Shown: positions 58,326 through 64,000 of the stretch, piece after piece
Position numbering within the stretch: the first letter of the stretch is position 1
How the letters are laid out: each line of letters opens with the position of its first letter
Assembly: GCF_900177375.1 (NCBI RefSeq)
Contig: NZ_FWZU01000003.1
Coordinates: forward strand, 186,001-250,000
Reading direction: 5' to 3'
Length of the DNA: 64,000 bases
From: Desulfovibrio gilichinskyi
GTDB taxonomy: Bacteria; Desulfobacterota; Desulfovibrionia; Desulfovibrionales; Desulfovibrionaceae
Notes under the pieces: generated by a model
The model's input: the letters and a program-made list of their open reading frames with translations, nothing else
Databases searched by the model: none
What the model was told of the DNA's origin: nothing
Program-made: the position numbers and the translations under genes

Positions 58326-60194
58326 TTAAAAACCTTTCATAAATACTACATAGAAGAGTTCGTAATCCCATGAAACATTTGCTCCCTGTATGGGAATTGA
58401 TGCAGCCGGAGAACCGAATATTTTATTCAGATAAATTGAATTGCGGTATAGCTGAGTCAGCTCAGCGCCGCTTAGGATCAGAACTGATTTGCGGAATTTA
58501 GACTTGTCTATAAATTTATACAGCGGAGTATGTTCCGCATGCGGATATTTGTTTTTCAGAATCTGCCGTGAAACAACCGGCGCCATAATCATGTCGTTGA
58601 ATTTTTGAACGTCAAAAGGAAGAGTTGCCAAATATTTCCCATTTGAGCTGTTGATAGCATTACGCAAAAAGAAGCTGAGGCCCGGATTGGTATGCATTGT
58701 ATGTTCTGAAATTATAAAGAGGCAATCAGCGGAAAGATCTTTTTTGATCATTTCTGCCAGATTTACAGCAATCAAAGGGGTTGGCTGAAATTTATTTTCT
58801 GAATTTATTCTCGGAGCGGCATTAAAATATAAAGGGTATATTGCAAGCAGGGCAAGGAAGGCTATGGAAAGGAATGCCATAGGTTTTCGGTAATTTCTGA
58901 TTGCAGAAAATATCATCAGTGCCGCCACAGCAAAGGTGGAAATGGCGAAAGGCAGAAGCTCTGAGCTGAAGTTTGTTACAGGAACATTTTTCCATAGATT
59001 TACAGAGATTTCTCCAGTCGCCAGAACTGCGGTGCCAATGAAAATAGCTGTTCCGGCTATGATTACGTTTCCGAGTACAAACAGCCTCTTAAACATTTTG
59101 TCACGCGTTGCTGTCAGCAACCAGTTTACAGTGACAACTGACAATAACGGCAAAATCGGCAGAAAGTAGCGGTGCGCCCTCAGTCTGTACACAAAGATGC
59201 TCAGCAGCAGATAGAAGATGGAAGTCCATACAATAATATTTTTTTCTTTAAATTTATCAGGTCCATATTTAAGAAGGTTATGGATTGCTCCTAAAGAAAA
59301 AGATCCTAATGGGAAAAATAAAATGATTGCTTCATAGCTGTAAAATCCAAGGCTCCCCAAATAGAAGAAAATAAGGCTGCCCTTATGCGCTGTATTTTCA
59401 GCAGCGTCACCGAGCATTCCTGATAGATAGTTCATACCCGGAGAGCTGGCAGACCATATCCATAACAAAAACGGACCGCATCCAAGAATAATTCCTAGAG
59501 TGATGGTTAAAGATTCTTTGCGTAAAGTAGGGACCGCAGATTTTATAAAGGTATTAACATAGCTCTTGCATGGTCTGTCTCTAAGCAGTTCTGCCATGAG
59601 ATATCCTGCCAACGGAGGGAGTGCGAACGGGCCTTTCGTTAATACTCCAAAAGATAAGGCTATTGTTGCTCCCAGTAGATTCGCAATACCTCTGTTTCCT
59701 TGAAATCTGCGGAGGTAGAAATATGTCGCCCATGTTACCGCGGCTGTGTAAATGATGTCCGCTTTGAGCATCATCCCTTCAATTTTAAAAGTAGGCGCAA
59801 TTAACAGTAATAAAGCTGCCAGTAATCCTACTTTTGCAGAATACAGCCTTTTCCCTATCAGGTAAGTGGCTGTAACCGTTAAAACTGAGCTTAAAATTGC
59901 CGGAATACGGGTAATAAATAAGAGTGTTCCGTTACTGAAGGATGCTCCGAACATTTTTAACGCAGGAACTGCCATCCAGTATGGCAAGGGCGGTTTTTCC
60001 ATGCGCGGTAAGCCGTTGAACATTGGATGGAGCCAGTCGCCTGATCTGAACATCTCAAGGGCTGCGGTTATATATTTGGGTTCATCTATATCAAAGAAAA
60101 ATGGCCGCCACTCGCCCATACAAGCGAATAGGAACGCAAAAATTATTAACCCTATGAGTGGTAGATGGTCTTTGTAGGAATTTCGGATGGTCAT
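58326..60194 (-). CDS. ArnT-like membrane glycosyltransferase
   Basis: A 622-residue polytopic membrane protein of the PMT_2/ArnT (GT-C fold) family. The N-terminal loop after TM1 has FFFDIDEPKYITAALEMFRSGDWLHPMFNGLPRMEKPPLPYW, the catalytic acidic motif (D-E) and the family KPPLxYW signature. About ten to twelve helices follow, then a soluble periplasmic tail of about 160 residues. Relatives transfer sugars from polyprenyl phosphate to lipid A or other surface lipids. No arn genes are near, so the sugar is unknown. Confidence 0.9.
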   Translation of the reverse strand: MTIRNSYKDHLPLIGLIIFAFLFACMGEWRPFFFDIDEPKYITAALEMFRSGDWLHPMFNGLPRMEKPPLPYWMAVPALKMFGASFSNGTLLFITRIPAILSSVLTVTATYLIGKRLYSAKVGLLAALLLLIAPTFKIEGMMLKADIIYTAAVTWATYFYLRRFQGNRGIANLLGATIALSFGVLTKGPFALPPLAGYLMAELLRDRPCKSYVNTFIKSAVPTLRKESLTITLGIILGCGPFLLWIWSASSPGMNYLSGMLGDAAENTAHKGSLIFFYLGSLGFYSYEAIILFFPLGSFSLGAIHNLLKYGPDKFKEKNIIVWTSIFYLLLSIFVYRLRAHRYFLPILPLLSVVTVNWLLTATRDKMFKRLFVLGNVIIAGTAIFIGTAVLATGEISVNLWKNVPVTNFSSELLPFAISTFAVAALMIFSAIRNYRKPMAFLSIAFLALLAIYPLYFNAAPRINSENKFQPTPLIAVNLAEMIKKDLSADCLFIISEHTMHTNPGLSFFLRNAINSSNGKYLATLPFDVQKFNDMIMAPVVSRQILKNKYPHAEHTPLYKFIDKSKFRKSVLILSGAELTQLYRNSIYLNKIFGSPAASIPIQGANVSWDYELFYVVFMKGF

Positions 60195-60419
60195 TATTTG
60201 TTAGATCCTATGAAATATATGACATGTATAGTTTAAAGTTTAAGCTAGGGAGCCCTGTGACCGGCACGGACTCTTATCACACATGTTTATGTCTCTTTTC
60301 AAGAGGTAGTGAATATATAAAATTTTACTTGGAATATTCTCTATCGTCGGCGTTTAGTATCTATTTACATATTTAAAAACGTGTTTTATTATTTAAATAT
60401 AGAATAAACGTTGATACGG

Positions 60420-60445
60420 AAAAGGATGAGTGGCATAGTCCTTTT
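60420..60445 (+). promoter_or_regulatory. Hairpin masking the ribosome-site-like sequence before the 60446 gene
   Basis: AAAAGGA (60420-60426) pairs perfectly with TCCTTTT (60439-60445), which abuts the ATG at 60446. The only purine-rich ribosome-site candidate is thus inside the stem. Confidence 0.5.
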
Positions 60446-60808
60446 ATGAAAGCGTTAATTTTATTTTCCCTGATTTTCCTCTTGCCGCCTGCTGCCGTTG
60501 GTGCAGAAAGAGATTATCAAGAGTTATGGTGCACTCAGAACCACGGGCAAATGGAATATGTACTTCCTGATGCTACGCGCGTGGACTGCTTGACTAAAAC
60601 TCATGCTGTTGAAATGGATTTCGGGAAAAAATGGGCCGAAGCCATAGGGCAGTCTTTATATTACGCTTCATGTACCGGAAAACGGGCCGGTGTTGTTCTT
60701 ATCATGAATAAGGAAAAAGACATTCGTTTTTTACGCCGCTTAAACGAAGCAATCACATATGCCAAACTTCCTATTGATGTTTGGGTTATGGATGACTCTA
60801 AGCCATAG
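60446..60808 (+). CDS. Small exported protein, possible PD-(D/E)XK-like fold
   Basis: A 120-residue protein with signal peptide about 1-20 (ending AVGA). The mature part contains R45-V-D47-C-L, then H53-A-V-E56-M-D58 and KKWAEAIGQSLYY. I recall this pattern from a family of small uncharacterised proteobacterial proteins; the order D ... E-x-D ... K and the following helix resemble a PD-(D/E)XK nuclease core, but that is only a suggestion. The C-terminal VWVMDDSK may form the last strand. Two cysteines (C29, C48) and one at 76 could form disulfides in the periplasm. A YkgJ-type gene follows by about 70 bp. Confidence 0.72.
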   Translation: MKALILFSLIFLLPPAAVGAERDYQELWCTQNHGQMEYVLPDATRVDCLTKTHAVEMDFGKKWAEAIGQSLYYASCTGKRAGVVLIMNKEKDIRFLRRLNEAITYAKLPIDVWVMDDSKP

Positions 60809-60880
60809 ATTAGAGCTGTCAGCGTTTGCATGTTTTTTGAGTGCAGGGTAAATAAATTCATTCGTAAGATGGAGGAAAGG

Positions 60881-61645
60881 ATGAATTTTAGCTCTGACGC
60901 GGTGATAAGCAAGGAACTTGCTCATGTTTACGCAATGTTTGAAGGACATGCTGAAATGCAGAAGTGGTTTAATGATATGGCCCTTGCTGTGTGCGCGGAT
61001 TTAAAGGGCATTACTCCGGATCACAACCTTTTTGCACGTATACTTGCTGATAAAGGAAGACATTGTTTTGAAGGAAATTTTGATGTTATTACAAGTCAGA
61101 TCAGTAAGCTTGACCCTTCGTTTAAGATAGCATGCGTTAGCGGTTGTTCATATTGTTGTTATTCGCACATAACAGTGTCACCGCAGGAAGCTTTCAGTAT
61201 TGCATTACATTTAGCCGAGAATTTTGATGCTGGCGTGCTTGAGGAAATTGTTGCAGCATGCGCGAAAGAATCAGAAAATTTCCATTGCGCAGGATTGCAG
61301 GAATTTTCAAAAAAATATTTTGGCAAGTGTCCGTTTTTGAAAGATAATAAATGTTTAATATATGAAGTGCGTCCTATTGCCTGCCGCAACTGGATATCGC
61401 ATGACCTGAAAGCTTGCAGTGCAAGTTTTAAATCAGAGAACAGCATCGCCGTTCCTCAAAATGCCATGATCATGATTCAAAAAGATCTGATCTTTGCCGG
61501 TCAGCATACTTATCTGGCAAATTTAGGAATTAACGGGCATATCGCATCATTATTGCCTTTGATGCAGCAAATTTTATTGGACTACGAAGGCACATACGCC
61601 AGATGGCTTGCAGGGGAAACTTTGCCGGGGCAAATGGACAGATAA
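60881..61645 (+). CDS. YkgJ-family cysteine-cluster protein (second copy)
   Basis: A 254-residue protein. A helical N-terminal part of about 80 residues leads to the cysteine core CVSGCSYCCYSHITVSPQEAF and CPFLKDNKCLIYEVRPIACRNW, a YkgJ-type zinc- or iron-sulfur-binding pattern. The first set differs from the other copy in this window (28538-29206) in having CxxxCxxCC. The frame opens at 60830, but GGAGG at 60871-60875 points to the ATG at 60881. Function unknown; relatives have been linked to methylation of flagellin lysines (FliB) by distant similarity only. Confidence 0.85.
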   Translation: MNFSSDAVISKELAHVYAMFEGHAEMQKWFNDMALAVCADLKGITPDHNLFARILADKGRHCFEGNFDVITSQISKLDPSFKIACVSGCSYCCYSHITVSPQEAFSIALHLAENFDAGVLEEIVAACAKESENFHCAGLQEFSKKYFGKCPFLKDNKCLIYEVRPIACRNWISHDLKACSASFKSENSIAVPQNAMIMIQKDLIFAGQHTYLANLGINGHIASLLPLMQQILLDYEGTYARWLAGETLPGQMDR

Positions 61646-61646
61646 C

Positions 61647-61689
61647 AAAAATCCTGTCAGCTTTATAAATAAAGCTGACAGGATTTTTA
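61647..61689. terminator. Bidirectional terminator between YkgJ-type gene and trpB
   Basis: Perfect stem of about 17 bp (AAAATCCTGTCAGCTTTAT with its complement) with T runs on both strands; the gene pair is convergent. Confidence 0.9.
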
Positions 61690-61724
61690 CTTTTATATCA
61701 CACGAAAAGCGGAATTTGCTTGAT

Positions 61725-62936
61725 TTACGGCATGCAAAATTCACCTTTGCTGATCAGACTTTCGATTTCAGCTACGTCTTTATCACCGCGACCGGATAAG
61801 TTGACGATGATGATATTATCTTTGTGAAGTGTCGGAGCAAGCCTTATGGCATGGGCCAGCGCGTGTGATGATTCCAGTGCTGGAATGATTCCCTCTTTTT
61901 GAGAAAGTGTGAAGAAAGCATCAACCGCTTCTTTGTCGGAAGCGTGTACGTACGTTGCTCTGCCTAAATCTTTAAGGTGTGAATGTTCAGGACCGACGCT
62001 TGGGTAGTCGAGTCCGGCAGATATTGAATAAACCGGAGCGGGTTCGCCTTTTTCATCTTTAAGCATATAGGAATTGAATCCGTGCATTATGCCGGGCTTA
62101 CCGAGGCAGAGTGTCGCTGCGTGGTCGCCGGGATTCAGGCTGCGACCGGCCGGTTCTACGCCGACAAGTTTTACTGTTTCGTCTTTTACAAAATCAGAGA
62201 AAAGGCCGATAGCATTTGAGCCGCCGCCTACGCAGGCAATGCAATAGTCAGGCAAGCGTCCTTCATCTTCAAGGCATTGTTCCCGTGCTTCCTTACCGAT
62301 AACTGACTGAAAGTCGCGGACCATAGACGGATATGGATGCGGTCCTACTGCTGATCCCAGCAGGTAAAAAGAGTCGTCTGCGTCCTTAATCCATGCACCG
62401 AGAGCTTCGTCAACGGCTTCTTTAAGGGTGCGCTGCCCGGACTGCGCAGAGACAACTTTTGCGCCCATCATCTGCATACGGAAAACATTAAGTTTTTGTC
62501 TTTCAACGTCAACTGCGCCCATGTATACAGTGCATTCCATTCCCATGAGAGCCGCGGTTGCAGCTGTGGCAACCCCGTGCTGTCCGGCACCTGTCTCGGC
62601 GATGATTTTCTTTTTGCCCATGCGTTTTGCAAGCAGGATCTGACCGATGGTGTTGTTAACTTTGTGCGCGCCGAGGTGGTTTAAATCTTCGCGTTTCAGA
62701 TATATTTTTGCTCCGCCCAGTTCATTTGTCAGGTTGGAACAGAGGTAAAGAGGAGTAGGGCGGCCGGAATACTTGGATAGATAATATTCCAATTCCCGTT
62801 TGAATTCTTCATCGTCTTTATACTTATTGTAAGTGTCGGCAAGTTCGTTAAGGATAGGGATGAGTTGTTCCGGAACGAATTGTCCACCGTATTCACCGAA
62901 AAAACCGTCTGCAGTAATTGTTGAATTGTCAGCCAT
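61725..62936 (-). CDS. trpB: Tryptophan synthase beta subunit
   Basis: A 403-residue PLP enzyme that joins indole and serine to tryptophan. The PLP lysine is K92 in [23 protein letters not shown] and the phosphate-binding GGGSNAIG are present. It is the TrpB1 type. The frame extends seven codons upstream (62957), but AGGAGAG before ATG 62936 decides the start. No trpA or other trp gene is adjacent: the next gene on the left converges and on the right is a transaldolase facing away. A terminator attenuator and a Trp-rich leader peptide precede it, so the gene is controlled alone by charged tRNA-Trp. Confidence 0.97.
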
Positions 62937-62977
62937 TTTTTCTCTCCTGAATCTCATTTTAGACAGTGGGCCGCTGA

Positions 62978-63016
62978 TAATAAAAAACCGCGACCAGTTT
63001 TCACTGTCGCGGTTTT
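62978..63016 (-). terminator. trpB leader attenuator terminator hairpin
   Basis: On the minus strand AAAACCGCGAC (63016-63006) and GTCGCGGTTTT (62994-62984) form a perfect 11-bp stem, followed by TTATTA. It stops transcription about 45 bases before the trpB start. The alternative partner of CCGCGAC is GTCGCGG at 63068-63062, just after the leader peptide stop, giving the antiterminator. Confidence 0.9.
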
Positions 63017-63071
63017 ATAATTCTTTATTTGCCAGTCACTTTCTAATGAACGTAACCTAACCCGCGACGCA

Positions 63072-63125
63072 TTACATGCGCCACCACCAATTACAAAGGG
63101 TAAAGTTAGATGAAGAAATGTTCAT
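63072..63125 (-). CDS. trpL: trp leader peptide
   Basis: An 18-codon frame on the minus strand encodes MNISSSNFTLCNWWWRM and a TAA stop. Three TGG codons in a row lie four to six codons before the stop, the arrangement of proteobacterial trp leaders. A stalled ribosome at the Trp codons would cover the first segment and leave GTCGCGG free to form the antiterminator. The GGCGCAT-GTA-ATGCGTC pause hairpin (about 63083-63067) overlaps the stop. Its ribosome site is weak (GGTAATT). Confidence 0.9.
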   Translation of the reverse strand: MNISSSNFTLCNWWWRM

Positions 63126-63140
63126 AATGATTGGTAATTA

Positions 63141-63163
63141 CCCGCCAACGCAAAAGTTGTCAA
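63141..63163 (-). promoter_or_regulatory. trp leader promoter candidate
   Basis: TTGACA at 63163-63158 (minus strand) with 17-bp spacer leads to TAATTA, a poor -10. The -10 lies inside the perfect palindrome GGTAATTACC (63133-63142), which may be an operator. The rest of the 63126-63393 gap is AT-rich and holds the divergent transaldolase upstream region, with AAGGAG before that gene's ATG. Confidence 0.5.
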
Positions 63164-63393
63164 TATAGTGTTAAATTTTTATTCTATCTAATATAAAGGA
63201 TGTTTAAGGTCTCAATTTTAAATGTAAATATAGTTAGCTGATGATAAATTAAACTTCTGTAAATATTAAAAGATAGTGCTTTTGCTCGCGATTTATTTGC
63301 GATATGAAAACAGCACATGTAGTGGGCTTGAAACAGAGCTCAATTAAATATTCCAGTCATAATATACATGATCAAGATTAAGGAGATATTTTA

Positions 63394-64000
63394 ATGGAAT
63401 TTTTTTTAGATACAGCCAACATTGATGAAATAAGGAAAGCGCAGAGCCAAGGGCTTCTTGACGGAGTCACCACAAATCCTACGCTTTTAGCCCGCGAAGG
63501 CGGGGACTGGCGTAAGCAGGCGCAGATAATTTGCAATGAAGTCGAAGGGCCTGTCAGCCTAGAAGTTATGGGCGAAACCGCCGAAGAAATGATAAATGAA
63601 GCGGAAGATCTTTCTAATTTCGGAAAAAATGTTGTTATTAAGATACCTATGACAACCGAAGGGTTGATTGCCACTAAAGCTCTTCATAAAAAGGGAATGA
63701 AAACAAATGTGACTCTCGTGTTTTCTCCGCTTCAGGCTCTTTTGGCCGCAAAGGCAGGAGCAACTTACGTAAGCCCTTTTGTGGGACGGCTTGACGGTAT
63801 TTCTCACGATGGGATGGAACTTATTTCTCAGATACGGACAATTTTTGATAATTATGAATTCCCGACTAAAATTCTTGTGGCAAGTGTCCGCACCCCTTTG
63901 CATGTTCTTGACTCTGCGTTGATAGGCGCAGACGTGGCAACTATTCCGTTTAAAATTATAAGTGATTTTGTCAAACATCCTCTTACTGATCAAGGCCTTG
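63394..64000 (+). CDS. Transaldolase (small Fsa/TalC-type), truncated by window end
   Basis: The frame runs from ATG 63394 (AAGGAG site) to the window edge without a stop: 202 codons of a family of about 215. It starts [20 protein letters not shown] with [10 protein letters not shown], and K83 in NVVIKIPMT is the Schiff-base lysine; [28 protein letters not shown] is the standard second half, and [12 protein letters not shown] follows. Members of this class transfer a dihydroxyacetone unit (transaldolase) or split fructose 6-phosphate; the two cannot be told apart here. It is divergent from trpB. Confidence 0.95.

Follow-up and report, generated by a model that had tools for sequence, protein, structure and literature searches.

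A probable tryptophan attenuator of a second, monocistronic trpB and related putative attenuators of aromatic amino acid synthesis in Desulfovibrionales

In the window, the whole 64,000-nucleotide stretch of Desulfovibrio gilichinskyi DNA that was analysed, it is very probable that expression of a second, monocistronic trpB is governed by a ribosome-mediated tryptophan attenuator. This switch is one of three apparent attenuators of aromatic synthesis in the genome. A short open reading frame with tandem Trp codons lies before a trp gene, with an intrinsic terminator between the two; the antiterminator, in which segment 2 pairs with segment 3 (2:3), and the terminator (3:4) exclude each other, and segments 1 and 2 can form a protector hairpin (1:2). 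As far as its sequence goes, the switch would fall within the definition of the E. coli trp leader, yet it lies beyond the models of Rfam. The case is made of sequence, conservation, covariation and geometry, from which we infer ribosome stalling, termination, the response to tryptophan and the transcript start.

The trpB leader and its predicted switch

The features of the locus, in the direction of trpB transcription, are as follows.

63158 to 63163, minus strand: TTGACA, the -35 hexamer of a presumed promoter of the leader; its would-be -10 partner, TAATTA (63140-63135), is poor
63072 to 63125, minus strand: trpL-like leader reading frame, MNISSSNFTLCNWWWRM, by eye without a Shine-Dalgarno site, present in 16 of the 17 genomes of the genus
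63081 to 63089, minus strand: three tandem Trp codons, the presumed stall site
63076 to 63082, minus strand: segment 1, GGCGCAT, overlapping the last Trp codon; its partner is the 5' half of segment 2
63062 to 63072, minus strand: segment 2, ATGCGTCGCGG; the 5' part pairs with segment 1 and GTCGCGG with segment 3
63004 to 63014, minus strand: segment 3, AACCGCGACAG, in 2:3 and 3:4 pairing, each in 97.5% of cells
62982 to 62997, minus strand: segment 4 and T-run, CTGGTCGCGGTTTTTT, an intrinsic terminator together with segment 3
62962 to 62968, minus strand: segment 5, CACTGTC, in certain clades only; complement of GACAGTG (segment 3 and terminator loop)
62944 to 62948, minus strand: Shine-Dalgarno sequence AGGAG of trpB
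61725 to 62936, minus strand: trpB, second copy (TIGR00263 trpB), likely start ATG at 62936
61646 to 61689, both ways: two-way terminator of 19-20 pairs between trpB and a converging CxxCxxCC-domain gene (identified by Pfam)

A preliminary description, read from the letters of the window, had already located the leader frame at 63125-63072 on the minus strand, with its peptide MNISSSNFTLCNWWWRM and three Trp codons, as well as the stretches GTCGCGG (63068-63062), CCGCGAC (63012-63006) and GTCGCGG (62994-62988), the last followed by six T, and all of these positions were borne out. It was there proposed that three mutually complementary segments make up the switch; their complementarity stands, but the segments number four, the 1:2 stem having been overlooked. 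Segment 1 itself, the TTGACA at 63163-63158 and the CACTGTC at 62968-62962 had likewise been passed over.

The Trp codons taken alone are unconvincing, because TGGTGGTGG is found once in the window and is also present in 19 of 100 shuffled windows. A chance origin of the leader is ruled out by its conservation and by complementary bases that change together, and not by the WWW motif. The leader RNA of the window folds moderately better than shuffled sequence (z -2.53, with 1 of 200 shuffles equally good). A consensus terminator scan lists only the terminator after trpB and omits that of the leader, probably owing to a bulged base in the stem of the latter.

The product of the gene scored 614.8 bits against TIGR00263, above the cut-off of 392.45, which places it in the TrpB family. 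Its monocistronic nature, claimed previously, holds at the level of the sequence with the bidirectional terminator that follows it, and the gene upstream of the leader is a transaldolase gene on the plus strand, running in the opposite direction. The claim that no other trp genes stand beside trpB was found to hold locally and to fail for the genome, as a complete trpEGDCFBA operon lies elsewhere; this rules out the idea that trpB is the only trp gene of the genome. There are thus two trpB genes, the operon copy being 54% identical to the lone one, and the lone copy might serve to make tryptophan from free or salvaged indole.

We propose that transcription would start at the leader AUG itself or no more than a few bases ahead of it. 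With Trp-tRNA plentiful, the ribosome would reach the leader stop and cover segment 2, so that 3:4 could form and transcription would end before trpB. With Trp-tRNA short, it would stall on one of the three Trp codons, at segment 1, leaving segment 2 free to pair with segment 3 ahead of the synthesis of segment 4, and the polymerase would read into trpB. If no ribosome were present, 1:2 and 3:4 would both form and transcription would stop. Folding of the leader RNA in both states, a check suggested beforehand, gave the antiterminator when the ribosome was stalled and the terminator when it stood at the stop: in constrained folding, which addresses geometry only, a simulated ribosome on the first Trp codon, with RNA made up to segment 4, yielded the antiterminator in each of the 40 leaders, and one at the leader stop yielded it in none and the terminator in all 40. 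For the window, the terminator is the preferred fold of the completed RNA at equilibrium, stalled ribosome or not; therefore 2:3 would have to form before segment 4, as in the classical case.

A perfect TTGACA stands 35-39 nt ahead of the in-frame leader ATG in all 44 leader loci (four of them near-duplicates). With the geometry of sigma-70 promoters, such spacing puts the start of the transcript at the AUG or within a few bases of it. Because of this spacing, and since no Shine-Dalgarno site was seen by eye, the leader mRNA is probably leaderless or nearly so, beginning at the AUG or a few bases before it. Against such a start are the poor -10 and a consensus promoter scan, in which the leader promoter is unlisted and another minus-strand site, at 63190-63162, would begin the RNA upstream of the leader AUG. 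An operator-like palindrome over the -10 in locus L010 was, by eye, absent from the other loci and was dropped.

Conservation, pairing and distribution

The same trpB was found in all 17 genomes of the genus, with leader and segments in 16. A broken leader frame in sister species, or segments that were not conserved in relatives, had been named as grounds for rejecting the switch; the frame is intact in 16 of the 17 genus genomes and the segments are kept, with compensatory changes. In the remaining genome (G004, locus L009) the leader and attenuator have been lost naturally, and a promoter-like TTGACA-N17-TAAATG remains upstream of trpB.

Pairing was assessed in an alignment (A1) of 40 distinct leaders, from which four near-duplicate loci had been removed beforehand. 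All 200 cells of the 1:2 stem are paired, one of its positions showing GC, AU, CG, UA and GU, and the 2:3 and 3:4 stems are each paired in 97.5% of cells. For all three stems both the number of paired cells and the covariation score lie above every shuffle (0 of 500 as high), and when partners are slid by 1-3 columns pairing falls to 22-63%. Changes on both sides of a pair were seen in three of five pairs in 1:2, one of seven in 2:3 and one of nine in 3:4; by the number of such two-sided pairs, or by that of pair types, no stem stands clearly above its 500 shuffles, of which 34 and 115, respectively, were as high for 1:2, 491 and 500 for 2:3, and 498 and 500 for 3:4. A base of segment 2, the base of segment 3 that pairs with it and the segment 4 partner of the latter change in concert, reading U-A-U in 15 rows and C-G-C in 25, which may be a single event inherited by 15 genomes.

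That the region is instead the terminator of some other transcript or a small RNA gene, with trpB served by a promoter further downstream and the WWW frame incidental, appears very unlikely. The position of the terminator between leader and trpB would suit such an arrangement, as would a weak promoter-like site (9/12) that overlaps the terminator in the consensus scan, and the rnTrpL leader of Sinorhizobium meliloti is described as acting in trans as a small RNA (PMC7298713). Nevertheless, the upstream transaldolase gene, on the plus strand, points the opposite way, and WWW, segments 1 and 2 and the pairing between them are kept across the 40 leaders.

Segment 5 opens another alternative, in which translation of the leader acts on the stability or translation of the trpB mRNA, through pairing of segments 3 and 5 near the trpB start, and not on termination. 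The complementarity of CACTGTC and GACAGTG is present in the genus and in some relatives; in L018 segments 3 and 5 have changed in a compensatory manner, and cells altered on both sides outnumber those of most shuffles (6 of 500 reach as many). The covariation is mixed, and the 3:5 score is matched by 134 of 500 shuffles; moreover, only 80.8% of 234 cells are paired, gaps fall there in the Desulfomicrobium-type rows of A1, and conservation of the T-run and the terminator is much stronger. We therefore accord this explanation very little probability and retain attenuation by termination as the preferred reading.

Least credible of all is control of trpB by a T-box, a TRAP site or a riboswitch, with the reading frame arising by chance. 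Such elements can all end in a terminator before trp genes, but Rfam gives no such match in the stretches scanned and both the Trp codons and the frame are conserved. Models for Trp_leader (RF00513), T-box and riboswitch families were unmatched in window positions 60000-64000 and in loci L004, L018, L151 and L041; at E values up to 1 the same part of the window gave microRNA-family matches on the two-way terminator only, and at gathering scores the four loci gave no match.

Outside the genus a pattern scan placed the leader before trpB in 12 of 21 loci of the family. Among the named loci L034-L069 it was found before 16 of 36 trpB genes, including those of Halodesulfovibrio and Desulfomicrobium (4 of the 16 repeat genus or family loci), and by that pattern it was absent from 20; in the more distant trpB loci L070-L113 the pattern occurred in 0 of 44. 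These counts of presence are lower bounds, and absence means absence of that pattern, because the scan missed L164 (genome G059), where a covariance model of the leader, R1, matched at E 5.8e-7, and chose a late ATG in L018. With R1 itself, 59 of 199 Desulfovibrionales genomes, covering 18 of 43 genera, had a single match apiece, many of the 59 having supplied sequences to the model, and 140 were without a match at E 0.01. The placing of the window in this order is backed by named relatives and by taxonomy. For 12 of the R1 matches the downstream gene was read, and it was trpB in eight, trpE in three (all in genus g40) and a DctP-type gene in one. The last of these (L268:146-344, in genome G178 from another family of the order) consists of a WWW leader, MKKLNFQTAALDFSWTGFWWWRSRICCGLKGAL, and a terminator before the gene for a DctP-family (PF03480) solute-binding protein, possibly part of a tryptophan- or indole-related importer under tryptophan attenuation.

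In genus g38 (L150, L156, L157 and L159) a vestigial leader end, (R/Q)WWRP*, and GGGCCGTGG precede trpB without a T-run terminator, and by its sequence this leader appears to be a decayed attenuator. The switch seems dispensable, because it has been lost in G004 (L009) and is vestigial in the four readable g38 loci.

Probable attenuators of the aromatic supraoperon

The complete trp genes belong to a supraoperon with the order aroA' (a DeoC-family aldolase), aroB' (DHQ synthase II), pheA, aroA, tyrA, trpE, G, D, C, F, B and A, in which names were given by family matches and others by reading of the sequence, trpA by Pfam, and aroA corresponds to the older aroF. In front of aroA', in the same genome (C3, L004:970-1170), a leader MQTFNTLGASHSFFYYFYFWCTHACGRVEVCS is followed by a terminator. 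Leaders of this kind, in which a terminator comes after successive Phe, Tyr and Trp codons, were found upstream of aroA' homologues in 47 of 50 loci; the script had returned 48, of which L316 was spurious, having no terminator, L311 and L336 are without a leader, and a simpler rule also missed L318. Trp was present in the chosen codon run of 45 of the 47 front leaders, their 2:3 pairing was better than that of at least 196 of 200 shuffles in all 47, and in 43 of them TTGAC stands 35-40 nt ahead of the AUG. In 42 of the 50 loci tyrA lies 3-7 kb downstream (31 established by coordinates and 11 picked by that distance), and 41 of these 42 carry the front leader.

The second attenuator of the supraoperon would be formed by the end of tyrA. 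In D. gilichinskyi TyrA ends in ERASWWWRENNT (WWWR), and its stop codon overlaps GGGAGAA, the complement of TTCTCCC inside the terminator before trpE (L004:6100-6375). The arrangement is the same in 16 of 16 genus loci, and in L118 and L119 both tyrA-trpE arms differ together (TAGGAGAAT and ATTCTCCTA). A table of 92 tyrA loci, 16 from the genus and 76 others, contains WWW in 81. Binding of the tail to the terminator was tested in 69; the other 23 either came from g40, in which tyrA stands apart from trpE, or yielded no terminator that could be used, and in L180, L181, L182 and L191 among them a hairpin is present by eye. In 63 of the 69 the tail binds the 5' arm and loop of the terminator better than it does in at least 190 of 200 shuffles. 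One locus, L214, was dropped since its 'terminator' lies inside trpE and is a false call, so that 63 of 68 pass; L221, L225, L226, L250 and L254 fail this binding test. The 68 loci represent 20 genera of six families, and trpE is the next gene in 66, the other two stretches ending too soon.

Across the 20 genus means, the first Trp codon lies 25.5 nt from segment 2, with a standard deviation of 1.6, whereas the distance from the stop codon to segment 2 has a standard deviation of 7.2 and in single loci ranges from -19 to +11. With shuffled sequences the former distance has a standard deviation of 15.3; not one of 5000 draws of 20 matched the observed tightness. The position of segment 2 in tyrA tracks the Trp codons and not the end of the protein, and in many loci segment 2 falls within the coding sequence, where it is read as GG-rich codons. 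When the RNA was folded with the ribosome placed at the first Trp codon, the antiterminator formed in 68 of 68 loci, as compared with 1 of 68 with the ribosome at the stop and 9 of 68 for the finished RNA. A control in which terminators were exchanged was mixed: no foreign terminator was the equal of the native one in 9 of the 20 genera, and between 1 and 10 of 19 were in the other 11, an outcome to be expected if the terminators are alike across genera.

In a table of 28 genera compiled by hand, each of the 20 genera with a terminator includes one or more members with WWW (L231 of g54 has WWF), and of the eight without a terminator call three have WWW and five WW only (Fisher P 0.0006, kinship being ignored). 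Five further loci of g38 have the same tyrA layout by eye, and L255 of genus g7 has a WWWKEER tail, by eye without a clear attenuator. The g40 genomes have WWW in a tyrA that is not followed by trpE, which either speaks against a purely regulatory meaning of the motif or marks it as a relic. Their trpE has a separate WWW leader in all three loci that were read (L261-L263).

This g40 leader reads GWWWR with a tail like QLRGGDVRA; similar tails, among them WWWRSHTERGGVRPS, are seen in TyrA, and the leader may have been left over from the end of a tyrA gene.

Outside the order, the TyrA matches listed stop short of residue 251, the start of WWW, apart from a single weak one that extends to 252, and among 20 tyrA stretches from outside the order WWW occurs once, beyond the tyrA stop (the frame is doubtful in about six). 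It is likely, judging from the sequences, that the WWWR tail of TyrA is the tryptophan sensor of trpEGDCFBA, with the end of a functional enzyme serving as the leader.

Taken together, Desulfovibrionales probably, though with less assurance than we attach to the trpB switch, possess three tiers of translation-coupled attenuators: a front leader, its Phe, Tyr and Trp codons in an uninterrupted or almost uninterrupted series, that would respond to all three charged tRNAs, the WWWR tail of TyrA, and a leaderless WWW leader for a spare trpB whose product could draw on salvaged indole. In such a scheme the front leader could read three amino acids at once and the lone trpB would gain tryptophan control of its own. 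In 20 genera a functioning enzyme of metabolism seems to supply a leader peptide with its C-terminal end, and, if this is true, TyrA carries a regulatory 'leader peptide' in which the residues after WWW are dictated by RNA pairing.

Relation to known attenuators

In E. coli, trpL is a short leader with tandem Trp codons and four segments, and a terminator precedes the trp genes. The leader in the window is like it (and like the RF00513 family) in its tandem Trp codons, its four segments and its terminator before a trp gene, and differs in having no Rfam match and no visible Shine-Dalgarno site, in an AUG near the expected start of the transcript, and in governing a lone second trpB and not an operon. 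A presumed RNA start at the leader ATG is shared with rnTrpL, the trpLE(G) attenuator of S. meliloti, for which an RNA beginning with the trpL ATG is reported (PMC7298713). The S. meliloti attenuator, unlike that of the window, governs trpE(G) and is alphaproteobacterial.

In a survey of Rfam motifs, with 10 Desulfovibrionales genomes among those covered, it was suggested that amino acid attenuators are gammaproteobacterial in origin, with few transfers (PMC3766115). The trpB switch would extend classical trp attenuation to Desulfovibrionales. Neither the trpB leader nor the TyrA tail was found to be described in the literature consulted, chiefly open-access and mostly at the level of titles and abstracts. 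For the aro supraoperon of Desulfovibrio vulgaris, a supraoperon of the same kind, a putative attenuator at the front was given from Merino's database (Song et al. 2005, PMC1173090), and the existence of the front attenuator is therefore already known; the parts of that paper that bear on it hold no description of a Phe/Tyr/Trp leader peptide, and the triple-codon peptide is to that extent undescribed there, as are a tyrA-internal sensor and a trpB leader.

A counterpart of the proposed TyrA attenuator is that of E. coli rph-pyrE, whose leader is likewise the final part of the gene upstream and which responds to UTP through coupling. The TyrA tail, unlike rph-pyrE, would sense charged tRNA through specific codons and not UTP. 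The nearest precedent found is YtgCR of Chlamydia, in which, according to the available account, a WWW motif within the gene of a functional protein couples the supply of tryptophan to transcription (PMC7755916). The sign of the two responses would be opposite, as starvation is there described to end transcription of the repressor gene, whereas at the TyrA tail starvation should allow readthrough into trpE.
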